A stretch of 64,000 bases of DNA, from positions 728,622-792,621 of the forward strand of contig NW_004450324.1 of the NCBI RefSeq assembly GCF_000321225.1. Direction: 5' to 3'. A program made the translations under genes and the position numbers. Positions 10,936-50,196 of this stretch are shown here, in pieces; positions within the stretch are counted from its first letter, which is position 1, and each line of letters opens with the position of its first letter. This DNA is from Odobenus rosmarus divergens (Eukaryota; Chordata; Mammalia; Carnivora; Odobenidae). The notes under the pieces are model-generated. The model was not told where the DNA came from. It saw only the letters and a program-made list of their open reading frames with translations, and made no database searches.

Positions 10936-12025
10936 GGTGTGCTTCTTAAGACCAGCTCATGAGTCAGTTGTACTTCGCTACTCAGAGAGCTTGGGGCTTT
11001 GAATGCTAGGCCACCTGAGAACTAGGGGTGCGCAGGGTTTGAGGGGGGAGGAATTCACAGCACATCCAACCCTGACAGGCCTGGTGGGGTAATGAATCTC
11101 AGAGAGGGTCCTTAGGTTCCCACCGGAACTCTGGGTGGACAGCCCCCTTAATTGCCTTTCAAAGTCAGTTTCTACCTCTTCTTTTCCCTCCTTACAATTC
11201 TAGGCCCTGAGCCAGGTCTCCCTTTTCAGATCTAATTGTGTTACAGAGCTCAGTGAGAGTACCCACTGCCGAGGGATCTCAGAGCTCCTCATGCTGAGCC
11301 GGATGGAAGAACAGTGAGGATGGTCGCAGCTGGAGAGGGTTTTGTTCCAAGCTGGAATTCCAGCTTCAGTGGGGTGTATTTGGATGCATTAACTCTGGGA
11401 CGGTGGCATGAGCCAACAGAAAGTGTGAATACAAGCATAAAAGGAAGCCAAGAGAACCTGCGCTTGGATTTGCTTGTAATATCCCGCTTTGGTATTTGTC
11501 TTGGGCATTAAGCTCAATATGAAATGGGTCTTGGGAATTTATGAGAATTGGTTTTCTGCTCAGCTTCATTTCTGGGTGTACTCCAGAAAGGAATGAGAAA
11601 GCCTGCTAGTGTCTTCGGGAAGTCCGCGTACTTCGGCCCTCCCGTCGCCCCTCCTGGTAGGCTCTCCCGGTGCCCAGTTCCGACCCTGCCTCCCTCTCCA
11701 GCCCAGGCAGCTGTTCGAAAGCTAGGCGGTGTGGGAGCCCCCGGGTGGCAGGCACTATTTACGGGACTGAAGCTGATGTTGCTCATTTCATCACATGAAG
11801 CAGAGACCACTTTATTAGCAGGCATGCACTACACTGCATAGTATAAGATCACAACCATAGCAGGGGTGTCCATAGAAAGCTGTCAGATCATACTGGTCAC
11901 CCATTTTTAGGGTTTCCCAGTAAGTTTTTTACTATTCGCTCGCTCGCTCACTCACCCTATGTTCTATCGGCACTCAGTTGCAGACAAAGGTTGATGCAGA
12001 GACCGTGGGTTTCAGGAAAATACGT
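10936..12025. other. Intergenic DNA just after LRP2
   Basis: Unique-looking DNA. The part at 11600-11760 is G/C-richer with several CpGs. Overlapping open frames of about 100 codons occur on both strands at 11514-11841 but resemble no protein I know. Confidence 0.5.
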
Positions 12026-12040
12026 GAGAGGAGAACTTTA

Positions 12041-12212
12041 CTTTTTTTTAAAGATTTTATTTATTTATTCATGAGAGACAGAGAGAGAGAGGCAGAGGGA
12101 GAAGCAGGCTCCCAAGGAGCAGGGAGCCTGACACGGGACTCGATCCCGGGACTCCAGGATCATGACCTGAGCCGAAGGCAGATGCTTAACCATCTGAGCC
12201 ACCCAGGCGCCC
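12041..12212 (-). mobile_element. CAN-SINE, ATTCATGAGAG subfamily
   Basis: It is a full-length element with the duplication gagaggagaacttta at 12026-12040 and 12213-12227. The middle has TTATTCATGAGAGACAGAG and ctcccaaggagcagggagcc, shared with the elements at 40851 and 44948. Confidence 0.95.
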
Positions 12213-12839
12213 GAGAGGAGAACTTTAAATTGAGAACTCAATCCATTAAGTTGTTTTTTCTCTGAAATGGGAAAAGACCATTATTTGACTTTTGAGGCGG
12301 CGTATCTCAGGGTGGCTCAAAGACTGTGAAGAACTAGGTAGGCTCTGGGGTGAGGGAGGGTTCTGAGGAGGCTGGTTGGAGATACACAGCTTTCGCAGGT
12401 GTCCTGGAAAGAGCCCTGGGCTGCAGCCTGGAGCCCTTGGCTGCCCTTGGCCCATCATCCTCTGTTCCTTCCCCCTGCACTCATCATGGTCACAAGCCAT
12501 ACGTCCTGATGGAGTACTATATAACCATGTATTTCCTCTTGGAAAGCACCCTTAAGAGCATAAAGCATAAAATTGCTTTCTTCACATCCGCGTTTTGCTT
12601 TGAAATAAACCAGCGTGTGTGCTGGGGAGAGAGGGAGAAACAGGATGGAGATACAGAAAGATTGGCCATGAGACAATACTTTTTGTACTTGTTGAACCTG
12701 GGCATTGGGTCCATGAGGTTTATCATACTATCGTCTCTGTTCCTGTGTATGTCTCAAACTTTCCTGAATGAGCTAGGAACTCAGATCCTTCAGCTGTACT
12801 TGCTGTCCTCTCCAAATAATACACATTCACGAATTGTCA

Positions 12840-13095
12840 CCATAGTATGCAGTGTTCTAGGCACCAGGGATGTGAATACCAATAACTTGTGGAACATCGA
12901 TGTGGCAGGTTGGGCTCTGAATACTTTTACGTGTTTTATCTCATTTCATCCTCATAACAATCCTATGAGGTAGATACTATTATGCCCATTTTTTAGATGA
13001 GGCAGAGAGTGGTTGAACACCTTTCCCAAAGTCACACAGCCAGTAAGTGCAGGGCTAGAAATCAAACGCAGCTCGGGCTCTAGAGCTTGTGTTCT
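12840..13095 (-). repeat. MIR element
   Basis: It contains cctatgaggtagatactat, cccattttttagatgaggc and aaagtcacacagccagtaag, the reverse complement of MIR. Confidence 0.75.
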
Positions 13096-13656
13096 TCACC
13101 AAGATGCTGCTGTGGCCACTTTTCTCCGGCGTCTGTGTTCATGCTGTGTCCATGATATTCTGGAATCAGTGATAAGAAACAAACAGGTCTCTAGAAACTA
13201 CTAGATGTCATCGAGTCCCACTTAGATGACAACATTGCCGGTCACTGAGTGCCGTCCCCGCTTCTGCTGACCAGAGAGACAAGGGGCACTGACGGCTGTT
13301 CCGTTGGTAACCAGTGTCCCCTAGTGATAACTGTTTGCCAGGAGGACAATTTCCCAACCAACGCTTTCATCACAGAGGCTGGGCCATCCTGCTGTCAACC
13401 TCAGCCCCAGAGGCTGCTTCTAGAAAACTGGGAGTCCGATGTGTAACGTGTAAAGAAGGTAGTCAGCCCACTGCCTGGCACAGAGTGAGCCCTCCATCCG
13501 TAGTAGCCATGCTTATGGTTGTTCACTGAGTGGAGGAGAGGGAAGAGGTTTTTCTTAAAAAGGAAATAAATTTTTAAAAGCTCGATGGGTGATTTTAATG
13601 TACAGCCAGCATTAGAACAACTGATCTAAATAGAAATGGCTGATCTTCAATTTTTA

Positions 13657-13848
13657 AATTTTTTTTATTTTAAAAGATACTTAGTGAGTGAGCAGGGGGA
13701 GGGGCAGAGAGAGAGAGAAAATCTCAAGCCGACTCCCCCCTCTGAACGCAGAGCCTCACAAGGGGCTCAATCTCAAAACCCTGAGACCATGACCTGAGCC
13801 GAAATCCACGGTTGGGCGCTTAACCGACTGAGCCACCCAGGTGCCCCT
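13657..13848 (-). mobile_element. CAN-SINE, diverged older copy
   Basis: The head reads ttaaccgactgagccaccc and then aggtgcccc. The body is diverged (ctcaagccgactccccc) and the tail is degraded, so it is older than most SINEs here. Confidence 0.85.
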
Positions 13849-14249
13849 AATTTTTTTTTTAATAAAGATGTTATGGGGTTTTTAAGATTTTATCTGAGCT
13901 TTTGGAAGAATTCACAATCTTGTCTGTAATGAGGCTGGAGTGGAGATGATAAAATTGGGGTCTCATTTTATTGTTATTTAGATGTAATAAGGTAATTAAT
14001 ACCCCTGGGCATGAAAGATGGGAAAACCAAGGCTGAGAAAGGTGAAGTGCATATTCAGGTCCAACGTTCAGAGCCACATTTCTTCTTCCAGCAAGGCAGG
14101 GGTAGGGCCTTCCACAAAATTCCCAGTGTCTAGCACCCAGACCTTTGCCGGATTGAAGAAAAGTTGATGTAGAAAGTTATTCTTTTATCCCTTTCCATGT
14201 TTCCAGACTTAGCTCCAAGAGACTTTTTCTTTCTTTTTTTTTTTTTTTA

Positions 14250-14450
14250 ATAGCCTGGGTGGCTCAGTTGTTAGGCGTCTGCCTTTGGCTCGGGTCATGA
14301 TCCCGGGGTTCTGGGATCGAGCCCCGCATTGGGCTCCCTGCTCAGCGGGGAACCTGCTTCTCCTTCTCCTACTCCCCCTGCTTGTGTTCCTGCTCTTGCT
14401 GTGTCTCTCTCTGTCAAATAAATGAATAAAATCTTTAAAAAAAATAAACA
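14250..14450 (+). mobile_element. CAN-SINE inserted in the T-rich tail of an opposite SINE
   Basis: It is a + element starting tagcctgggtggctcag and ending with an A-rich tail that runs into the T-rich tail of the minus SINE at 14456. The pair forms a tail-to-tail inverted repeat. Confidence 0.9.
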
Positions 14451-14455
14451 GACTT

Positions 14456-14600
14456 TATTTTTTTAAAAACATTTCATTTATTTGACAGCACAAGCAGGGG
14501 GAGCAGCAGAGGGAGTGGGAGAAGGAGAAGCAGGCTCCAGCAGGGAGCCCAATGCGGGGCTCGATCCCTGAGATTATGACCTGAGCCACCCAAGAGCCCC
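14456..14600 (-). mobile_element. CAN-SINE, internally shortened, host of the inverted pair
   Basis: A minus element with aagcaggctccagcaggg and a shortened head. The duplication around the whole pair is ctccaagagacttttt near 14212 and ctccaagggactttt near 14600, so this copy went in first and the + copy later landed in its tail. Confidence 0.85.
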
Positions 14601-14837
14601 TCCAAGGGACTTTTCTTTCATTATGTTCTATTCGTTAGTTTTCCTTAGCCCTGCTGTGGCTGTGATTTCCTCAGGAGGCCTCTTAGGGACCAGGAAACAG
14701 GACACCAGAAAAGTCCTGAGCCTTCTTGACCAGAATGATACTTCTACCGCAAGTCAGGTAGGACGTGGTCTATTTCCAAGACTGCGATTGTGTATTTACT
14801 GTTTCTAGGTTTCCATGGTTTTATTTTGGGGCAACTT

Positions 14838-15037
14838 TTTTTTTTTTTTAAAGATTTTACCTATTTATTTGACAGAGAGAGACAGCGAGAGAGGGAACAC
14901 AAGCGGGGGGGGTGGGAGAGGGAGAAGCAGGCTTCCCACTGAGCAGGGAGCCCTATGCGGGACTCGATCCCAGGACCCTTGAGATCATGGCCCGAGCCGA
15001 AGGCAGACACTTAACCGACTAAGCCACCCAGGCGCTT
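14838..15037 (-). mobile_element. CAN-SINE
   Basis: A full-length minus element with the ACACAAGCGGGG middle. Imperfect duplication: attttggggcaactt at 14823-14837 and atttttaggcaactt at 15038-15052. Confidence 0.92.
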
Positions 15038-15309
15038 ATTTTTAGGCAACTTCTAAAAATAAAGCATTTTAGAGCGATACTTCAGTTTTTTTAAGGTAAG
15101 CCACCTCGAGTTCTTGGCACAGAGCTTTGCTGCCATTTTCTGAATCTTAAAAGCAACCAAACGCATTCGGTGGAGGGCAGTGGAGACTTTATTTGCAACA
15201 GAAACTCACATTATGAAGATAGCACTTGGGCTTTGTGTATGTGCAGGGGGGGGGCGGGGGTTGTCAGTTTATCTGTCTTTGACCATTGTCAAGGGCCTCA
15301 CGTATACGG

Positions 15310-15480
15310 CTGACACAGACCTCAGGCATACTGGAGGGACCGAAGCTCTAATTGGCCATGTGACCGTGGGTAAGTCTTTTCACCTTCCAGCTGATTAGTA
15401 GCTTTCTCTGGAAAGTGGAGGGGTTGGACACAGTTTTCTAAGTTCTCCTCTAGCTTTCAAGTGCCATGGTTTCAATGATT
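15310..15480 (+). repeat. MIR element
   Basis: It contains catgtgaccgtgggtaagtc and a degraded 3' part with tagctttctctggaaagtgg, in + orientation. Confidence 0.5.
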
Positions 15481-16397
15481 TATCTGTCCTGAGCCTTCAT
15501 GTGGAGTTGGGTTCATTTCAAACTCACTGCAGCTGTTCAGCTAAGTTCTAAGCTTGTTACAGCAACTTCAAAGAAGGCAGATTCAATAACAGCATCTTAA
15601 TTTTTACCCTCAAATCCTGTCTCTCTCTCTAGTTGAGCTACCAAAGAGATTCATAATGGAATCCCACCCCCCTTTTTTTTAAGTATCTGAAAGCCTGCCT
15701 GTCAATTTCAGAGCTGGAAGTTGCCATGAGGGGTTCCTTTCTGCAGGAAACTCTGCGATCGTTTATGCATCCAAAGCTGTGGGGGCCTTTCATGGGACCC
15801 CGGGCCCATGCCGAGTTTCCTAAGGCACGTGAAGGGACCCTAGCCAGAGTGAGGCTGCTGGTGGAGCAGGCAGGCACCTGTGAAGAACCAATAGTATCCT
15901 GCTGACTTCTGAGGAGATTCGGGGTCCATGGGTGGTCTCTGGATTAAAGAACAGGTGAACCTAGGAATACAATAAATTAATCATGTGGTTTCTGTTCTTT
16001 GAAAGTCAAACTTGAATTTATTTTTTAGTTGTGGTAAAATACACACGACAAAATTTTAAACTTGAATTTGTAATCATCAACCTGGTATGTGGGGCCTTGT
16101 TTTTGTTTTCCAAGATGGCCTTAGAAGGCTGTCTATAATGTCTGAAAATCACTGAGTCATGACATTTCCTTCTACAATTCTGTGTCAGAACCCATGAAGA
16201 GAGACGGGGCTTAGCCCAGTTCAGCCCAGGAGGAAATGATTTAGTCAGCTATGATGGCCACGTGGGTTACCTCTCAGAGTGGGTGGAGCTGTGGTGTTTA
16301 TAGAGTATAAAGCCACCAATGTTAATAACTTAGGCAAATGGCCATGAAGCTGTGGTGTAGGAGTCAGCTTTGGCATCTCGGAAAGTAAGAGTTGGAG

Positions 16398-16596
16398 GGG
16401 CGCCTGGGTGGCTCAGTCGTTAAGCGTCTGCCTTCGGCTCAGGTCATGATCCCAGGGTCCTGGGATCGAGCCCCACATGGGGCTCCCTGCTCCGCGGGAA
16501 GCCTGCTTCTCCCTCTCCCTCTGCCCCTGCTTGTGTTCCCTCTCACACTGTCTCTCTCTCTGTCAGATAAATAAATAAAATCTCAAAAAAAAAAAA
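16398..16596 (+). mobile_element. CAN-SINE
   Basis: It starts ggggcgcctgggtggctcag and is full length with an A tail. The duplication agagttggag is at 16388-16397 and 16598-16607. Confidence 0.95.
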
Positions 16597-16609
16597 TAGA
16601 GTTGGAGCC

Positions 16610-16765
16610 ATGACTCTTTCCCTAACTAGCTTGTGCAAGCTATTGAGCTTCACTGAACTTCAGTTTCTTACCTAAAACAAACAAACAAACAAAAACCATG
16701 GAGATGATAAACTCCACAGGACTCTCATGAGGCTAATATTGACCATTCACTCAACAAATGCTGAA
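16610..16765 (+). repeat. MIR fragment
   Basis: It contains cttcactgaacttcagtttc, an inserted aaac repeat, then ggagatgataaactcc and catgaggctaat, in keeping with a + MIR. Confidence 0.45.
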
Positions 16766-16799
16766 CGAGCATCTACTAGGTTCCGGGGCATGATATCAA

Positions 16800-16930
16800 A
16801 TAGTAGCAGCTCACATTTACTGAGTGCTTTATGTAAAGTATCTCGCTTAATTCTCCTGAGAGCCTTATATGGGACTACGATTGTTACCATCTTACAGATC
16901 AGAAAACGGAGATAACAGACAGAAAGATGC
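16800..16930 (-). repeat. MIR element
   Basis: It contains gctcacatttactgagtgct, taattctcctgagagcc and catcttacagatcagaaaac, the reverse complement of MIR. Confidence 0.7.
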
Positions 16931-17049
16931 TTTGTAGATGAGAACATGATACAGCATGCTTTGGCACAAGCCCATGACCCAGGAAAAATATTCCTTTACT
17001 TCCCCTATTGGAATTGTGTGGATTCTTGCGACCTATACCGTCTAGCAAC

Positions 17050-17300
17050 AACAGCAGTAACAGCAGGTTTTCTATGTGCCAAGACTTCTTCTAAGTTCAT
17101 GCACTTTCCAAGCATGAGCTCATTCATTCCTCCCAACGACGTCGTGAAGTAGATTATTATTGTCGTCCCCATTTTATAGATGAGGAAAGCAAAGTCGGAA
17201 AGGATTAAATAACTTGCGCGAGGTCTTACAGCTACTAAGTGTTGGACCCAGGACACTAGATCAGTCTGGCCCCTCGGTCTGCACTCTGCACCGTTTTGCC
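17050..17300 (-). repeat. MIR element
   Basis: It contains tctatgtgccaagacttctt, gtccccattttatagatgag and cttacagctactaagtg, the reverse complement of MIR. It is the second MIR in the same orientation within 300 bases. Confidence 0.75.
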
Positions 17301-18084
17301 TCACTGAGTTCTAGCATAGGTTGGCAAGGAAATATCCCATCCTAACCCACTTAGACCTGATTCCTGTCCATCTCTGTTCCCTTACTAACAGCTGCCCAGT
17401 TCCCTAGCTCCTAGCCAAACTGCTTGTCCCAAGGAAGTCTTCAGGGACTTGGGTTCTACTGAGGGCAGAGAAATCAGTTCTGGCCCCTGTTCGTTACTAT
17501 CTTGCCTTCAGTTAGCACTAATGTGATTTAAGAAGAGCCCTTGGAGGAGAGGGCTTCAGTCACGTGAGGGAACTCCTGTGCTGGACCGTCTCTTGCGGCG
17601 CTCCTTCCCCAGTTGGCTGCGGGCTTCTCTCCCTGTGAAAGGCCAGGCCAGCCCTGACTAGCTGTGCCAACCAGCATTAACCCTTTCCTCCTGCAAGTCA
17701 TTAGCGTTTAAATATGTAATGAACCAATGCCTTGGTTTATTCTGTGGAGGACAGGCTGAATATTCATGGGTTGACTTCTTCTGTGTCCCACCATGCAAGG
17801 TGGTTGTTCCCGGGAAACAAAGACACAGGAAAATGTGAAAGGCAGCTGCGGTGATTTTTCTGAGCTCTGCCTCCAAATGTATGGTGGAGTCAAACAGCTC
17901 AGACACCTAACCCTAGACTAAAAATTCTATCTGAAATTTCCTGGTGGGTCTCTCTCTAATCAAATGGGATGCACAGTCCTTTCCTGTACTCTCACGGACC
18001 CTCCTGGCTTGCCTTCATTCTGGTCTTGCTGCAGTAAGACTACAGTATAATTTATTATAATCAGTCCTTTCTGCATCTCCTCCT

Positions 18085-18200
18085 ACCCTGTGTGAATGTC
18101 TTAGGGACGACGGCTAGCTTTCACTCCATCCATAGCCCCTCACATTGAACCTGGCACTTAATAGGTACTCAATAAATGTCAGCTAAGTAAATAAATGAAA
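18085..18200 (+). repeat. L2/MIR-type 3' fragment
   Basis: It contains gaacctggcacttaatagg, then tactcaataaatgtcagc, shared by L2 and MIR 3' ends. Confidence 0.5.
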
Positions 18201-18659
18201 AAAGTTAAAGGCTAAAGTCAGAAAGAAATCTGCTGAATGCTGCACCCCAAGTGAAAGATGAATGATCTCATGAGTGCATATTTATCCCGCCTACCTCATA
18301 GGTTGTTTTAGAGGAGTTAACGCTTATGAGGTCACTCTGGTCACGATAAGGGGCCATTTAAATTTAAATCTTGGCTTTTTTCTTCTAATCTCCCGATAAA
18401 GGTCAAATGTTGTTTAAAGACATCTGAGGAGTTCACCTCCTGCGCTGACAGGCAGATTACTGAGAGGAAACAGGCTGTTACAAGTTCACCTGAGGTAGGG
18501 AAAGAAGCTCCGCTCCCCCCCCCCCCCCCCCGGTCTCTTGATCCTGAAAACCTGATAATGCTCTCCGACAGAGCAGGATGTAGAGGACCACTCACGAAAC
18601 CGCCCTGGGTTTCTGGACTTTTGAGACAAGGCTTGGTAGGAACTTGGGTCCATAGCTGG

Positions 18660-18910
18660 TGCCGAGGAGCAGTTAGCCTATGCTCTTCTGTACATAGTTT
18701 CTATACATAGTATCCCATTTAAAGAGTTTAAAACCTGAGGGAGGTACTATTACTAACATCCTCGTTTTCTGGAGGAGGAAAATAGAATTAAAATAGGCTG
18801 CTCAAAAAAAAAAAGGCTGCTCAAAACTACACAACGAATAAGTAGCAGAGCCAGGCTTTGAACCAGGAGGCTTCAGTCCAGAGCCACATCTCTATAACCA
18901 CGGTCAGCAT
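18660..18910 (-). repeat. MIR element with small internal duplication
   Basis: It contains gggaggtactattactaac, aaactacacaacgaataagt and agagccaggctttgaaccag. The phrase ggctgctcaaaa is repeated either side of an A run (18797-18827). Confidence 0.65.
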
Positions 18911-19089
18911 TGGCTTCTGGGCCCGGTCTGTGATTTGAGACATGATGTAATGGAAAGATCTCTGTTCTAGGCAGGAGAAGACTTAGGTCTTGGTCAGGTT
19001 GGCCAGAAATTAGCAATGTGGTCAAGTTGCCTGTTTTTTGTATATCTTAAATGGGGGATTGAAGATCAGTTTTTTAAAAATCTTTCATA

Positions 19090-19267
19090 GGGGCGCCTGG
19101 GTGGCTCAGTTGTTAAGCGTCTGCCTTCGGCTCAGGTCATGATCCCAGGGTCCTGGGACGGAGCCCCACATCGGGCTCCCTGCTCAGAGGGGAGCCTGCT
19201 TCTCCCTCTGCTTGTGCTCTCTCTATGTCAAAAAAATAAATAAAATCTTTTAAAAAATTAAAAAAAT
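19090..19267 (+). mobile_element. CAN-SINE
   Basis: It starts ggggcgcctgggtggctcag and is shortened in the pyrimidine-rich part. The duplication aaaatctttcata is at 19077-19089 and 19268-19280. Confidence 0.95.
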
Positions 19268-20072
19268 AAAATCTTTCATAAAGGAAGACCCTCTTTTATT
19301 AATTCCATGAGACTCATTCTTTGAAAAGTATCACTTATCAAAAGAATTATATTTTACTAACAATTACTTTGCGTTCTAGTTTTAATTAATTAAGTCACAT
19401 CAGAGTTATCAGTTTCAGCGAGGTCCCATCCGTCCCACTTTACCTAGCTTCTACCCTCTGTTTTTCTGTGTCATGTCACCATCTATTTTTGTTTCTTAGT
19501 CCTGGCCACCGTATTTTATGTACTAAGTCTGTTTCCTAGTTTTGTCTCTCTCTTCCTCCAGAAGGTAAACTTCTGTGTGGGCCAGCAATTCATTTGCTAA
19601 TTTACCTCTGGTACCACCGGCTCCAGACAGGGTAACTCTCAAGGCCAAGTCACATAGCAAACTGTATTCATGGGGAAGACACTTCTGTGGTAGCAGAACT
19701 TCTCTAAAGATCCCAGTTGATGGCAAACCTATACCCCTTCTACTCAGTTAATGGACAGGTTGAAGGAGTTGAAGAAAAGACTCTCTTCGTCTATCTATAC
19801 ATCCATGAAAGATACTTGGATCCATCCCTTTTTGAAACTAAATATTAACATGAGACCTCAAGAATGTTCCGGAAAGCTATTCATGCAGCTATAAGGATGG
19901 GTGGGACAAAGGCAGGATGGGGCAAAGGGAGAAGATGAACTCTGATACAGTTGTCACGAAGGCCTCAGTCAACCCTATAGGATGCTCTGGAGCTGGGAAT
20001 AGTCCTTCTAAGTTGTCCCTAATTGAGGCTGGGACCAAGCCTTTGATTAGCCAGGCATTGGCACCAACCGCC

Positions 20073-20663
20073 TGGGCTAGTCTCTTCGGGCTGCTATAAC
20101 AATATGAGAGACCATACCACATCATACGGTGGTTTATAACCAATAGAAATTTATTTCTTGGGCGTCTGGGTGGCTCAGTTGGTTAAGTGACTGCCTTCGG
20201 CTCAGGTCATGATCCTGGAGTCCCTGGATCGAGTCCTGCATCGGGCTCCCTGCTCGGCAGGGAGTCTGCTTCTCCCTCTGACCCTAACCCCTCTCATGTC
20301 CTCTCTCTCATTCTCTCTCTCTCAAATAAATACATAAAATCTTAAAAAAGAAAAAGAAATTTATTTCTCACATTTCTGGAGGCTTGGAAGTCCAAGATCA
20401 AGGTGCTTAGAGTGTCAGTGTTTGGTGGGAATCTACTTCCTCTTTCTCAGACAGTTGGCTGTCTTCTAGCTGTGTCTTCATATGGCAGAAGGGATAAGGA
20501 AGTTCTCTGGGGCCTGTATTAGAAGGGCATTAATCTCATTCATGAAGGCTCCACACTCGTGACAGAATTACCTCCCAAAGACCATACCTCCAAATACCGT
20601 TACATTGGGGAATAGGTTTCCACACATATATCTCAGGGAACACAAACATTCATTCTATAACAC
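20073..20663 (-). mobile_element. MLT1-type LTR (MaLR), split by a SINE
   Basis: Starts near tcgggctgctataac. It contains aagtccaagatcaaggtgct, cctcccaaagaccatacctc and a near-terminal acaaacattcattctataac, matching the reverse complement of MLT1 LTRs. It is a solo LTR of an ancient retrovirus-like element; no coding part is seen. Confidence 0.75.
20159..20354 (+). mobile_element. CAN-SINE inserted in the MLT1 LTR
   Basis: It starts ggcgtctgggtggctcag. The duplication agaaatttatttct, itself LTR sequence, is at 20145-20158 and 20355-20368. Confidence 0.95.
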
Positions 20664-20999
20664 ACCCCATAACCTTGGGTGAAGCAGCGTGCTAGCTGAG
20701 GTCAAGTCCATCAAAGGGCATGGTTATGAGAACTTAGCAGCTGGGGGATGGGTACATCATAGGCCTCAAAGAAGGATCTGGAAGGTGTACCGGGTAAGTC
20801 TTTAACTTCCATCTGATGCGTTCACCATACCCTAGTATACCTGATTACCAGAATGGAATGGAACAGAAAAATTTGCTCAGCCAGCACTGTGTGGCATTTA
20901 GCAAAAGATGAATCAACCCAAATACAAAAATGGCCTGGCCTTCCACTTGCCAGATTTCTGGACAGAGCGGCCATCCCAAGTAAGCACTAGAGGAAGGTT

Positions 21000-23900
21000 C
21001 CTAACCCTCCTCTCTCCCCTATTTGCTTCCCCTTTCCCTCTTCTCTCTTCGCTTTATTCTCCAGCTAAGCTGACAGAGGCAGCCTTTGAGGGGCATGAAG
21101 TTGGTCCTCTTGGCCTTGCCCTGGAGAAGAAGGCTTAGGGGATGGGGAAGGAAGGGCCTCACCTCCACGTGGGAACGAGGGAGTGGAGCGTGGCAGGAGT
21201 GAAGGGATGGGAGAGGAAGCCCTCTTTCTGGGTCAGAATCCTTTTGCTGGCCAGAGCTACATATGTCATAGCTGTTCTAAATGGGAGGAGATGGCTAACA
21301 GTTTTCTGAGAATATGCAGCTAAAATTGAGCTAGGTGGACCAAAAGTTCTGTATTGCACAAGAGAGGCATTCTGAGCTTACAGATGTGAAGGGCATTTCT
21401 CAGAGATCAAATGTGAGCAGAGGAAGTGTGTCCCAGGGTTTTGTTCTGTTTGTTTCTGAAGAACACTGAGTCACTGAGTCACCCTAAAGCACTAAACAGA
21501 TAGTCAATTTTAGAAAACTCAGGGGTGGTCAAGACTGCGCTGGCCTTGACTTAATGTACCTACTCTCAGACCTCACAGGAACCCTGGCCCCTCTAGGTAC
21601 CTTTATTTGCTTCTTTAACTCACTGATGAGTGAGTGTGCATGTCTCACACTGGATTGCAAAGAGAGTTTATATTTCTAAATTTTTTTTGGTGATAAAATA
21701 CACCAATCCTTTAGATCCCAGGTAACAGCTTTTGAATGAACCTGGTATTTTTTATGTTTTATTTCAAGATGGAACTATCTATACAATGACTCACTCCTTT
21801 GACAATGACCTGTTCTTGAGACTTCAGGGAGGCTTGAGAAAACCTCTAATTAGATCCAGGGAGGCCATGGTCATAAAGCCAGCCCCCAGTTCACATATGA
21901 CCCATGGCTCCCAGCCTTCCTGTCCCCTGTCCCTTCCCCTCAGCTTGGGGGAAATGTGTAGCCTCTTGAGAGTCTGTGGGTTCAGAAGACAAGAAAAGGA
22001 AGGGGCTGACAAAAGCAACGACGTGGGGCCCTTGAACCCAGGTTCTTGGCCCTATCTGTGGTGGGGGTCCAGGAGTTGGGAGCTCAGGCTTCCAGATGGC
22101 TGTGCCCCGCGGTGAAGACATAGATGCAGGCGTCACCGAGCCTAGTTTGGAGGCCTAGTTTCATTGCCTAAACTAGCATGTTCTTGTGGTGCAAATTTAA
22201 TCTCCAGGCACCTCAGGTTTTTTTAACTGAATAACATGGGGGCTATGACGGTATCAGGCTTCTAGGTTATTATGAAAACTACATGAAATAATGGATGAGA
22301 CTGTAAGCTCCACAAAGACAGGACATTGGTTTCAATTGTGCTATCAGCCGAGTCCTCAGGCTCACACCGTTGTTCTCAGCGCTCAGATATTTGCTGGCTA
22401 AATGAAGGGTGCAAACCACTTAGCCCAGGGCTTGCAGCATGGCCAGTGAGCAGAGCATTGCAGCCACTGTGACTCTCCTGGGGATGCTGCTTCCTGATCG
22501 CACCATCTACCAGGAGTTCTTGTGCGGGCTCGCGGGGCCGCTACACTCGCCCGGCCCTCCCACTCTAGTATAAGTCGAGTTTGCCAGTTCCCTTGTATGA
22601 CTCAGTAAGATGGCAGATCTATGCAGTGCGGCCTGTGGGCTTGGGGCTGCAGGTCTACTGCTGGGGCCTTCGGTCTGCTGAGGATGAGGCCAGGCCTGGG
22701 CAGGGTGCCAAGCTGAGGCATTTCAAACAGCAGGAGTCCTGGAAGGCTTGAGGCCAGGCTGTTAGGTGCTGAGGAAGGGGTCCAAGGGGGAAGTGGCAGG
22801 AAGCCAAAGGCAAAATGTGCCTGGTTTATTTTAGGAACTTTCCCAGGACCAGTCCCGTACCCACAAAAGCAGAAAAACATTTTTCTTTTCTTTTTTTCTC
22901 TGTATTCTCCTCTCTCCTGATTGTGTGAATTCTATTGTCCAAACACAGAACCAAGCCTAGTACCATTCGCTCTACAGCTGAGCCATGGTTTGGATTCCCT
23001 GGGCTCTTGCTATTTGGAGAGAAACCTGAACCGCCCATTGACCCATTGTTTCCATGAGAAATTCATTCTCAATTCCAAACAGATGATTAATGGTGTAGGT
23101 CTCAGAATGAAACCCCTTCTATACCCTGTCCTGGAATCCTGACAAATCGGGCTTGATTTCGGTGGCAGGCACTGGGGACTTGTGTTTGCATAATAAAGAT
23201 GTTGCAGGCCCTCAGGGAGAGTGAAGGCAGACTCAGGGCTATCAGGTCCAGACAGATAATTCTCGAATAAACTGGAACGATCAAACTGGAGGCCAAAGGC
23301 ATTTCTGCTGCTTCACATACTAGAAAGTGCTCTAGTCAGGTAAGAACTCAACTTGAAGAAAGAGTGCAGATGCATCTGCTGGTCCCGAGGGCGGCTGAGT
23401 TTCCGCAGCAAGGAACATCTTGACCGCGGCCATCTAAGTGTTCATAGTCTCTCCCAGACAGTTTCCCGAAGGGAGTCTGGGGCCCGTTCCTGGGGCAAGA
23501 AGCTTAGTGAATGAGCAGAGAAGGCCATGGAAAGATGTGCACCACTAGGAGTGTGATGGAAACACAGAGAGGGGAGTCCTTCTGGAGGTACCTCATCAAA
23601 GATTTATCATGCTGGTGAGAGAGCCGTGACTGGGGCTGCGTCGGGGTTGGGGAGAGGGAAGATGACCAGATCACTCTTTGGCAGCCAAGGACTGACCCAA
23701 AGGGATGCGGGCTGTCGGGAAAGAAGCCCATGGGTAGCTGGCAGGACTGTTGGTACCCACCGCCTCCTGGCTGCCACAAGCGCCCTGGGCCCCGCCCCGC
23801 CTGAATGTAACCTTCTTGGCTACTATCGGAACCAGGGTTACATTTATAGAGACTTCTGGAATACACAAGATTTGAAATTAGGGGATTCAACCAATGGATT

Positions 23901-25300
23901 TCAGCTTGGGGTCTCCTCCCATCTTCCCCCTAATGGGAAAGTGAAAGGAGGAATATGAGGAGCTGGCCAGATGGGTGCAAATGTTAACGGACCAAACAGG
24001 TTACCTAAGGTGCTTCCAGTTAGTTCCCTGCCACCCCTTACTAGCTACAGCAAACTGATTTGACAAAGCTTCACCCAAAGGGCAGCCAGATGGCTTCCCG
24101 CTGCCTCTGTCCCCTCTCCCTGCCCACAATAAGAATGCTAGGAACCGTGGCCAAAGGATTGGGGGAAAAAAAGAAATAGGACATTGGGGGTTGGTCCAAT
24201 GCAATAGAGCTTTTCACGGGCCATCCGGACGCTGTGTTTCTCTGGATCACTGCCGTTCCCTTCACAGCTTATAAAATATGATGGCCTGTCCCAGTTACAC
24301 TCAGCAGTGAAGGCTGAGGGTGAAACCGCGTAAGAGAAGTTAAAAGGAATTCCTAAACCTACCCCTCACCGGTGGTGGTTTCCACCTCACCCACATCCCT
24401 GCCCCCACCCCATCCAGGAGAGTTGCCAGAGAAGAGCCAAAGTTTCCACTCCCCAGTGGAAGCTTCCAGGCCCCAAGGTGACTCAGTGGATCTGCAGGGG
24501 GAGGGAGAAGGACCAAGGGTGGGAAACACACGGGCACATCCGTTCAATCCGGAGGTAACCTTGGCGCACCGGATTGGCGGAAGAGATCTTCACGTTTCAG
24601 CGTGGCTCTGATACTCTGCGCCCCGGGGGAGGGTATCTGTGGTCCCAGCCCCTCACTTTCCCGTCTGCAAAACGTGGTTCCTAATCCCTGTTCCCATCTC
24701 AATAAGGAGATAAAATCCAACAAACGCTGAAAGGTGTTGAAGCCTTGGAGCAGATTTCCACAGAAGGAGCAGGCTCATAAGTGTGTTTCAGGCCACAGGC
24801 CAAGGACAGTCCTCACAAATGGGAAGGGAATTAGGGGCCCGGGGCTGGAGAATGTTGGCCGTGGAGGTGTGGGGGTGGCGGTCATCTTCTCCTGGCCTAC
24901 AGGGGTGGAGCCAGGGAGGACTCTTTTAAATCCCTGTTGGTGTGTAGTAGTCACGTTCCGCCAGACAGAAAGGCCACCTTGTCCTGCTTCAGCACCGGCA
25001 GGTAAAACTTGGTCGGCCTGTCTCCTCCTCCACAGCTCGCGACTCTAGCCCCGTGGCCAAAGCCTGAAATCCCCCCCGCTCACGACGCTACCCAGGCAAA
25101 GAAATGTCCCTAAGCAGATTCGCCTCAAAGGGTGCCAGGAATTTGGAATTCGGGTGTAATTCATCTTCCAAAGACTGAATAAGTGGTTTTTTGTTTTGTT
25201 TTGTTTTGTTTTTTGTTTCTTTGCCATTCAGCTCTTTGTATTAGGTTTGGTTTGACCGTTGTTTCAGGCTTTATTGAAATTTGTCCCGCCCCCTCCCCCC
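21000..25300. other. Intergenic DNA, mostly unique, no gene recognised
   Basis: Apart from an L2 piece (22285-22410) I see no clear repeat. The part from about 23350 to 25100 is G/C-richer. Open frames up to 128 codons on both strands carry no known motif. I looked here for further exons of the decayed dehydrogenase (NNAG, YxxxK and IEPG codons on the minus strand) and found none convincing. Confidence 0.5.
22285..22410 (+). repeat. L2 3'-end fragment
   Basis: It contains gactgtaagctccacaaaga, caggacattgg and gatatttgctggctaaatga, the typical 3' end of L2 in + orientation. Confidence 0.6.
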
Positions 25301-25304
25301 CCAG

Positions 25305-25543
25305 GCAGGGTGGGTCAGTCAGTCAGTCAACACCTGCGACCAGAGAGCCTTACCACTCACGTTCCTGTCTCAGAAAAGGGATGGATAATGATGCAGAATT
25401 CTTCTTCATAATTATGTGTAGCCAGCAAATTCCTCAAACCCGTTGTCACATCTAGTTATAAAGACATGCCTGCCTCGGAGGTGCCTCCCTCCAGGTCCAC
25501 CTCCAGGGAGCAGCACGAACAAAGAAAGAAGTATGGAAGCCAA
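25305..25543 (-). pseudogene. Decayed SDR9C-type dehydrogenase exon (RDH16/DHRS9-like)
   Basis: On the minus strand, a hydrophobic stretch (SILLSLFVLL) leads into HLRGRHVFITRCDNGF. This matches the conserved start of retinol dehydrogenases (HLR, VFIT, CD, GF). One extra base near 25435-25448 then shifts the frame. Past it the next codons read GNLLA (25421-25433), and after a few diverged codons SETG (25363-25374), where DHRS9 has TESES. Further on, LTDP lies near 25311-25322, where DHRS9 has VTDP. In-frame stops, the frameshift, a shortened middle and the G-to-R change in TGxxxGxG rule out function. At protein level it is nearer the RDH16 type (11 of 16 matching) than the DHRS9 in this window (7 of 16). 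It lies 16 kb downstream of DHRS9 on the same strand. No further exon was found. Confidence 0.7.
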
Positions 25544-25559
25544 AGTGATTATTGGGGCC

Positions 25560-26970
25560 GGAGTGACAGGATGGAGAGACTGTAAGGAAATGATACGCAC
25601 AATTAGTGGCCTGGCAAGTTTACAGACATTACTCAGTAAGCTCCCCCATGAGCTCCCTGAATGCCCTGGTGGGGGCTTTGTAGCAAATGGTAGCTTTTTA
25701 TACATTTTAGTGGCAATGGAAATAGAGCAAGTGCAGTTGATTGACGGAACTGAGTAGAGCCTATTTATCCATCCCCGAGCTTTTGTTAGAGAGGGGAGGT
25801 GAAAATGTCTTTAGCGCTCCGTGGTCTCTGCTCCTCGTGGACACCCCCGCCATCTTTCTCTCTCGTCTGAAAAGTGCTTTGGCTCTGGCACAGGGAGGTC
25901 AGTGGGAGAAACCAAGTGAAGGTCAACCTTTTTCTTTCTCCTTTATTTTTTGTTCGTCATGGTTAGTGGCTGAATTTTTAAAAAGGTCCCAAAGCATGAA
26001 GTGGGCAACTTGAGTATTCTAATTTGCATATTCATGTCAAACCTGTGTTGCCAGCGCTCAGTTATTTCAAAGGCTGTTGCCAAGGGCCCAGCTTTGAAGG
26101 GCCTCTGCATGTAGGGGGGCACCTATTCTCAAAATGAGAACACCCCACCGCTCCCCTTCTTTCCGCTGTGCTTGGGGCTTCCCCCAGTGGAATGAATGGC
26201 AGCTTCTCCAAGTGGCTGACTTCACCCATCCATGCTTCTTTCTCCATGAAGGCATTTAAGCACGGTGAGCTGTGGGCACAGGACTTTGGAGATGGGGATG
26301 ATTTTTCTCTTATGCCTGTGTTTTTAATCACCTGCTTGTTCTTTTAAAAACTACATTTATTCATTGATTGATTGTGTTCAGTGTTATTCTGGGTTATGCT
26401 AGGGGCTAGCGATAGCAGGGAGCACGATGGTTTGCCATCAGACCCAGGAGACCTGCTCTTTGTGTTCTCATAGCAGTAAACTAGAGCAATGCCAGATTGA
26501 GAGGGTCTGAAAGGAAGAATTCTAGAGTAAGAAAAAGCTATTAAACAAAGAAAGGTGTTTGTTTCGAAGCATGGTAGGTTTTGATCCATTAGAAGTGATA
26601 ACTTCTCAGGGGCAGAGGAACAGACTGTGGTCCTTCCCAGTCAGAGCAAACTGGAACGGCAGATCTCTGCGTGGAATCCCAGGGGTTTTATGAGCATCGG
26701 GTGCCCCCTAGCGTCCAAATGGCACCACTGGGTTTGCATGCTTTAATCTTGACAAAAATGGAGCACAGGTGAGAGAGTGAGGCGGGGGAAATCTCACTCC
26801 TTTACCATTTGTTCCCTGGAGCCTGGGGTGTTGCAGGGAAGGAATAGGGGAAGGGAGGGGACCAGCTTCGGGAAGCAGCTGTGTCTTGTCCCCAAACCAT
26901 TCGGAGAAAGGGCTGACCTCGTCTAGGGCTTCCTTACCCAGTATGACCAAGACGAGAACAGGTCCATGCA
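25560..26970. other. Intergenic DNA upstream of the decayed dehydrogenase exon
   Basis: Unique-looking DNA with no repeat recognised. An octamer-type ATTTGCAT lies at 26022-26029. No coding exon seen. Confidence 0.45.
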
Positions 26971-38589: not shown

Positions 38590-40500
38590 GTTCTCCTGGT
38601 GCCTCCAAACTAAGTGAGGAAAGATCCCCATAAGTGAGAGGTGGTAGAAAGACAACATCTCAATTTATCCTGACCATAGATTCCTGGAGAAGCTCCTCTA
38701 AGGCATCCTGAGTAGCAGCCTCAGCTTTTGGATTATATTAAGCTCTATGAAGGAAGGGACCATGTCGTTCCTTACTGGCCAGGACTTAGCAGAATGCCCA
38801 GTATATGTCCTCCCAAATGCTATAGATAAAAATACGGTATTTTCCCAAAAGCACAGAGAATATTAGAAGTGATGGTGAGAGGGAGAGAAGTCTGGGCAGT
38901 CATACCTCAGACTCCTGGCGCGGTGGCCTTCCCATGTCCCTCCCTTCCTCTCTACCTTTCTTCCAGGTATGGTGCTTTTGTTGAGACTGTATCTTTATAT
39001 TCCAAATACTGCCACCTTCTCATTTAGTTTTAAAAGCTTTAAAGGTTGCTTGGGCGATATATTTGGTTTTATTTTGAGATGACACCATATTTGGGAGCAT
39101 TCATTTTAGTAGAACACTTTTGGATTGAATGAAACAGGGATTTGCCAGTGGTAGTGACTTGGAGAAATGAGCAAAGAACTCAGGCCTAGGTAAAACAAAG
39201 GAAATAATACCATTAGGTAGACCCAACAACACAACTGGAATGGTTGGAAGTTCAGCAAAGCAGGTTCCTGCAGATTTTAGACATTTGCAGCCATGGAGTC
39301 CAGGAAGATCAGGGAGCAGCAGGCCAGACATTTTTAGAATAGTGAAACGAAGCCAGGATCTGGGAATTCAAGGTGGGATGGAAGAGCCCCAGCAAACAAC
39401 GTTGATGAACTTCAACTCCAAGACAAGCTGTGCAAGGGTTACCTAACCCGCAGGTGGTTAATGCAACAAGAAGAAATTAGAGATCTAAGGTGAACTGTCA
39501 CTGGGGCTAGGACCAAGATGGGGATGACTTCACGGGGAAGTAGTGACAATAGTTTAGATAACTTTGCCTGAGAATTCTTCTGATTCTTGCTGTGATTTTC
39601 TTCATTTTCATGCAAAAAGGATGAGTGTCTTTTCCCCTTAAAATAATGACATATATATGCAGGTGGACTGACACCATCGGAAATTCGATTTTTCAAAGTC
39701 ATTAATATGTTGTAAATGTGAAAGGAGGAGATTACCTCATAAACAGATGATGTTTCCAGAAAGGTGAATGAAAATGAACAGAATTACTGATCTCTTCAAA
39801 TGGGTATCGTTTCATGCAGCAGATATTAACTATTTTCTTCACAATAAGTATGTGTGTGTGTGTGTGTGTGTGTGTGTACACAATGTAATTTTCCTGGCTC
39901 TTTCACCCTATATTATTTAGCAACAAATATTGAATTTTGACACTTCAGGTTTTTCGTGTGAATCTTCAACCAACCTACGTGAGCGATACCGGGTGTTGGC
40001 ATCTGGGGAAGCATCCGTGTAGAGAACTTGCTTTTGGAGGAGGTGTGAGGCCAAGCTCAATCCAGTTGAGGACCACAAATATGAGCAAGGAGCAGGCCTG
40101 CTGTCACTGTAACTGTAGGCCAAAGAGTCCTAATTTAGCTCTATATCTGTATGGGGCTTCAGAGACACCTCAAGTACAGGCTTTCCAACCATCTTGGGTG
40201 TAAGTTGTTTCAGAAATTCTGGGTCTTGTTGTATTTCCAATCGCCATAATAAACATACATGCCCTAGGTTTTCCTTCTTCGGAACGACTGATTACCAGCT
40301 TTCCACAGATAGCTGTGTACGCATCCGTGCTCACTGTGGCCATGAATGGGCTGTGCACCCTCCTTAGCTCCCTCGAGACCACGCAGGCTTGTCTTGGACT
40401 CTCCCTCCCTCCACTCGCATACTTGCTTCTTCTTCTCGGGCCTCTTGCTCTTCTGCTCTTTCCCTCCCCTCCCACTTGCAATCCTACTTAGTGTTTCTCT
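38590..40500. other. Intergenic DNA downstream of DHRS9
   Basis: A probable L2 3' fragment lies near 38735-38815 (ctatgaaggaagggaccatg). The rest looks unique, with the (TG)n at 39851. No exon seen. Confidence 0.45.
39851..39877. repeat. (TG)n microsatellite
   Basis: About 13 TG units within otherwise unique A/T-rich DNA. Confidence 0.95.

Positions 40501-41271: not shown

Positions 41272-50196
<8,925 letters not shown>

Follow-up and report, generated by a model that had tools for sequence, protein, structure and literature searches.

A unitary pseudogene is the dead remnant of a gene retained in other lineages, and GULO of primates is an example. Dehydrogenases of the SDR9C family, which are of the vitamin-A/steroid type, carry the cofactor motif TGxxxGxG, and one branch of the family, annotated as "retinol dehydrogenase 7-like" (hereafter RDH7-like), is found in sharks, fish, amphibians, reptiles and birds. 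The same gene is called "retinol dehydrogenase 7-like" in NCBI, "Retinol dehydrogenase 1" in UniProt and XB5957220 in Xenopus, and the last name is also borne by one of our RDH7-like rows (P0167). For one Xenopus region, Table 3 of PMC8834563 lists dhrs9, LOC108701361, nostrin, LOC108701845, XB5957220 and lrp2, with XB5957220 next to lrp2.

The RDH7-like gene is linked with DHRS9 in other vertebrates. In two quails (P0050 and P0051) and in the loggerhead turtle (P0048), fused gene models run from DHRS9 into the RDH7-like protein, and these models place the RDH7-like gene downstream of DHRS9 on the same strand. Brachypteracias has both genes listed with the same longest contig of 108,940 bases, and so have Alectura and Penelope (longest contigs of 943,993 and 2,122,403 bases). 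Moreover, the locus tags of the two genes are only two apart in three frog species (GDO86_016882/016884, GDO78_002593/002595 and GDO81_017434/017432). A contig of identical size appears in the DHRS9 and RDH7-like match lists of 18 species (counted by eye), which is weak evidence because most of these contigs are whole chromosomes.

The window, i.e. the whole stretch of 64,000 nucleotides (64 kb) analysed here, comes from the walrus (Odobenus rosmarus divergens). It contains an intact DHRS9 gene, whose spliced coding sequence of 960 bases gives 319 residues and a stop, and on the plus strand near 9.1 kb an LRP2-type tail sequence with the motif FENPIY, which we take to be the tail of LRP2. Two minus-strand segments between and beyond the coding exons of DHRS9 (45394-45447 and 39643-39717) match pieces of pangolin gene models (P0049, E 0.003; P0044, E 0.009), and may be conserved non-coding DNA that was translated as if it were protein. 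The relic of a first dehydrogenase coding exon lies on the same strand as DHRS9, about 16 kb further downstream (Table 1), which is the place and strand expected for an RDH7-like gene.

Table 1. Coordinates of the relic exon, its lesions, its neighbours and the candidate fragments in the window
Feature	Position	Strand	Remark
Relic of first dehydrogenase coding exon	25360..25552	-	hydrophobic stretch, HLRGRHVFITRCDNGF, then GNLLA...SETGT in second frame
Best-scoring core of relic	25486-25363	-	RDH7-like exon-1 profile
One-base reading-frame change	somewhere within 25432..25448	-	direct reading and profile alignment differ in placement
In-frame stop immediately past SETGT	25357..25359	-	fragment 25360-25455 runs from stop to stop
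Remainder of segment, with LTDP	25305..25356	-	homology unsupported
Candidate RDH7-like exon-3 scrap	within 15540..15596	-	AVIESAFFEVAVTSLEL, 17 residues; HMM E 0.077
Weak DHRS9 match over exon 2/3 junction, intronless	24969..25141	-	1/1000 shuffles
Splice-acceptor-like site upstream of relic exon	25580..25600	-	weak evidence
Intact DHRS9	41272..50127	-	coding exons 49815-50127, 48339-48597, 44708-44871, 41272-41495

The relic reads PIITLASILLSLFVLLPGGGPGGRHLRGRHVFITRCDNGF, one frame change, GNLLATHNYEEEFCIIIHPFSETGT and a stop. All the residues quoted in an earlier note on this DNA were located on the minus strand, where HLRGRHVFITRCDNGF occupies one frame, GNLLA and SETG share another, and LTDP falls in a third. 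Three disabling lesions are present, namely the frame change, the stop after SETGT and the loss of a glycine from the cofactor motif, and the death of the exon, which that note had deduced from the same defects, is borne out. The motif itself reads TRCDNGF with the frame change, and an intact TGxxxGxG is absent, as expected where the gene is dead. Read from its letters, the region 25305..25543 holds a gene fossil, a dead SDR9C exon 1, and not a working element.

In order to separate this resemblance from chance, average-BLOSUM62 profiles were made for each coding exon from 68 RDH7-like rows (two of which, P0210 and P0219, carry a shark RDH5 annotation) and from 16 DHRS9 proteins, and were aligned locally to both strands with frameshifts allowed. 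The RDH7-like exon-1 profile gave two peaks in the 64-kb window, 213.1 at exon 1 of DHRS9 and 72.0 at the relic, and the sole further match over the cut of 28 scored 28.1. In 200 whole-window shuffles (2-kb blocks, dinucleotides preserved), the maxima of this profile had a mean of 33.1 (sd 3.0) and reached 44.6 at the top, so that the frameshift-aware SDR search proposed beforehand did find the relic. The DHRS9 exon-1 profile scored it at 58.4, against a shuffle top of 45.4. GNLLA and SETG thereby hold as parts of an SDR exon, but LTDP, which had been counted with them, is unsupported because the score falls from 72.0 to 60.2 when the alignment is extended beyond SETG to LTDP.

Searches with hidden Markov models gave a similar picture. 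Among 3,368 stop-to-stop fragments, the two frames of the relic rank right behind DHRS9 in the RDH7-like HMM (E 7.7e-5 and 0.8); the DHRS9 HMM detects only the first frame (E 0.01), and a mixed HMM detects both (E 1.6e-4 and 2.7). At the DNA level, blastn aligns 25397-25462 with exon 1 of DHRS9 (68%, E 8e-4), and the score of the relic against the DHRS9 coding sequence was reached by 0 of 300 shuffles with stricter gaps and by 124 of 300 with looser gaps. The relic DNA has a single match in the 2.38-Gb assembly, and therefore membership in a dispersed repeat family, which had been named as the outcome that would speak against the relic, was not found. Judged by these alignments, the relic is confirmed as a homologue of SDR9C dehydrogenase exon 1.

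Among 233 fetched proteins, the best protein matches of the relic are RDH7-like, led by that of the frog Mixophyes with a BLOSUM62 score of 120, in an alignment of 69 ungapped residues that includes V.PA...TL.SI upstream of the DHRS9 start. The DHRS9 of the window scores 69, and the walrus's own RDH16-type and SDR9C7-type exons score 85 and 95, labels inferred by way of P0177, a bat protein. Because the set has many more RDH7-like than RDH16-type rows, a best-of comparison of this kind tilts toward RDH7-like. In a tree of the 69 columns, the relic groups with frog RDH7-like rows with support of 99/96, and of 99/95 when the walrus's own paralogues are added, on a long branch and with a letter composition flagged as odd. 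Kinship with RDH5 has an AU p of 0.059, and of 0.045 with the own paralogues. On these 69 residues, RDH7-like rather than RDH16-type is favoured, though not proven, as the closest living branch.

The rest of the gene is hardly visible. The earlier note had advised scanning 10936-25250 with an SDR profile for the missing exons, and none of exons 2-4 was established, either in 10936-25290 with two profile sets or in the whole window by HMM. The exon-3 candidate in Table 1 was matched by 11 of 1500 interval shuffles, and another match in the window has an E of 0.1. An exon-4 candidate at 17779-17847 (42 of 1500 shuffles; E 2.1 in the mixed HMM) was dropped, as its position does not fit the order set by the exon-3 candidate and the RDH7-like HMM does not list it. 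On the upstream side, the DNA of 25640-25540 is not more similar than shuffles to the five SDR9C exons tested. The acceptor-like site has a pyrimidine tract equalled at 12.9% of 2,059 same-strand YAG sites, and is displaced by 6 codons from the exon start that a single pair of lizard isoforms suggests. Downstream of the relic, an RDH16-type exon 2 continuation is absent (the best scores were equalled by 186 of 500 and 175 of 500 real segments), and the lack of anything RDH16-like there led to the rejection of a processed RDH16-type copy.

Living mammalian orthologues were looked for as well. With an RDH7-like query, the only mammal among the best 120 of 2,059 matches was P0177, a bat fusion of the RDH16/SDR9C7 type; a mammalian RDH7-like orthologue would be expected to have outranked the shark rows within these 120. 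A turtle RDH7-like query against the walrus assembly gave 34 matches, which comprise DHRS9, the cluster on contig C147 and weaker loci. Three exon-2 loci of the cluster were classified (L002, L004 and L005, with L003 left out), all of them closest to P0177, and none of these classified matches was of the RDH7-like class. Two further SDR9C exon-1 copies in the RDH16-type cluster (L013 and L014, at C147:1307110-1307334 and C147:1279222-1279488) contain an internal stop and are probably more recent dead copies.

The relic is probably the first dehydrogenase exon, still recognizable, of an RDH7-like gene that became a unitary pseudogene. The ancestor would have carried an RDH7-like SDR9C gene beside DHRS9, on the same strand and on the downstream, LRP2-facing side, as quails and the turtle do today, and on the line to the walrus this gene would have been inactivated and would then have decayed without function. 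That a tandem SDR9C array may once have lain between LRP2 and DHRS9 had been suggested before; a living SDR9C gene downstream of DHRS9 does exist in other vertebrates, and we infer that the relic occupies the same locus by descent, that it died long ago and that other mammals have it too. The relic retains 15 of the 29 positions at which 20 RDH7-like proteins show a uniformity of 80% or more. In a neutral simulation, the decay corresponds to about 0.35 substitutions per site, with about 0.2-0.5 compatible, and the probability that the first 69 codons stay free of stops is about 0.2 at 0.35 substitutions per site. With mammalian rates taken from general knowledge, this suggests that the gene may have died around or before the early placental radiation.

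Two other origins within the family have to be weighed against this pseudogene of the RDH7-like gene. A copy from the RDH16/HSD17B6/SDR9C7 branch might have arrived from the cluster and then died, which we consider unlikely. Of the DNA tested, the walrus's own RDH16-type exon comes closest (score 206, z 13.9, versus 138, z 5.5 for DHRS9, with RDH7-like DNA outside the comparison), and the AU p for kinship with RDH16-type is 0.114, and 0.132 with the own paralogues. In contrast, both cluster exons stay below the RDH7-like protein score, the log-likelihood of this placement is 9.1 lower than that of the RDH7-like one, the exon 2 continuation is missing, and only coincidence would have brought such a copy next to DHRS9 and in the expected orientation. 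The earlier preference for RDH16-type enzymes over DHRS9 is supported, since the relic is indeed farther from DHRS9, and it can be refined: the living branch that matches best is RDH7-like rather than RDH16-type, although the latter, at an AU p of 0.13, is not statistically rejected. An old DHRS9 copy, either a tandem duplicate or a processed copy inserted downstream, is more improbable still, despite the same-strand DHRS9 at a distance of 16 kb and the blastn match to its exon 1. The relic's exon 1 fits better as RDH7-like (72.0 versus 58.4), the log-likelihood is 8.5 lower, and the AU p for kinship with DHRS9 falls from 0.058 in the earlier tree to 0.039 with the own paralogues. The opinion that it is not a recent DHRS9 copy agrees with the protein score of 69 versus up to 120 for RDH7-like, and with the DNA z of 5.5 versus 13.9 for RDH16-type.

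The other point for a DHRS9 copy is the intronless stretch 25141-24969, which resembles exons 2/3 of DHRS9 and not RDH7-like, and which, if real, would be a pointer to a processed DHRS9 copy. With standard gaps its score was equalled by 1 of 1000 shuffles and 0 of 1000 real segments, with the loosest gaps by 15 of 1000 and 5 of 1000, and in a further control 3 of 500 real segments were as good; however, it fails at the DNA level (equalled by 231 of 300 shuffles) and in the HMM (E 0.8), and it is the top result out of several tests. That the whole resemblance is due to chance, or to a piece of a dispersed repeat, is scarcely credible. Single-frame Pfam and PDB searches of the relic found nothing, none of 87 candidates from a large protein set matched the relic part by itself at E<=10, and plain tblastn with 120 mostly DHRS9 proteins ranked the relic (E 0.025) under two other window matches (0.003 and 0.009). 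Against this stand the 200 shuffles, none of which came near the profile score of the relic, the support from DNA and the single match in the assembly.

The RDH7-like proteins of birds show losses of another kind. NNAG and the serine of the active-site stretch, which like the tyrosine and lysine belong to the motifs and catalytic residues of these enzymes, are each present in none of the 25 bird RDH7-like rows (P0121-P0134, P0137-P0140, P0142-P0147 and P0152), while both are present in all 43 non-bird rows. All 25 bird rows retain the tyrosine, and 21 of them the lysine. From the above, the bird RDH7-like protein looks like a conserved pseudoenzyme. In the gharial RDH7-like protein (P0194), the cofactor motif is TGCDSRFG versus TGCDSGFG, and this copy may be weakening too. 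It is tempting, though rather doubtful, to see an ancient dehydrogenase neighbour of DHRS9 that was given up twice, by decay in mammals and in birds as a protein without NNAG and the serine.

On this reading, the relic is physical evidence of a dehydrogenase gene which is retained in many vertebrate groups but was not met with among the mammalian sequences examined. It marks the former site of the gene, so that the loss becomes datable through one short interval across mammals, and it bears on how mammals came to depend on DHRS9 and the RDH16/HSD17B6 cluster for the same chemistry. Among the matches listed, no paper was found that describes the relic or reports that mammals lost the RDH7-like gene, including PMC10416458 and the available parts of PMC8073704, PMC8834563 and PMC8761697; subscription literature is thinly covered by this search, which makes it weak evidence of novelty. 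Unitary pseudogenes are ordinary; what makes this one interesting is the identity of the lost gene, together with the state of its orthologues in birds.

Compared with the known systems, the relic shares the family motif and the strand with DHRS9 (SDR9C4), but DHRS9 is intact and has GNLAA and KYIF, while the relic has GNLLA and HVF and fits the DHRS9 profile less well than the RDH7-like one. The RDH16/HSD17B6/SDR9C7-type cluster has GNLLA as in the relic and the closest DNA among the sequences tested, but it lies on another contig and its protein scores (85 and 95) are lower than the 120 of RDH7-like. The RDH7-like gene is the best protein match of the relic; the living gene is full length, with about 320-350 residues, whereas the relic is one broken exon. 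With no working copy among the matches classified, the relic resembles other unitary pseudogenes, a dead remnant where other lineages keep the gene.
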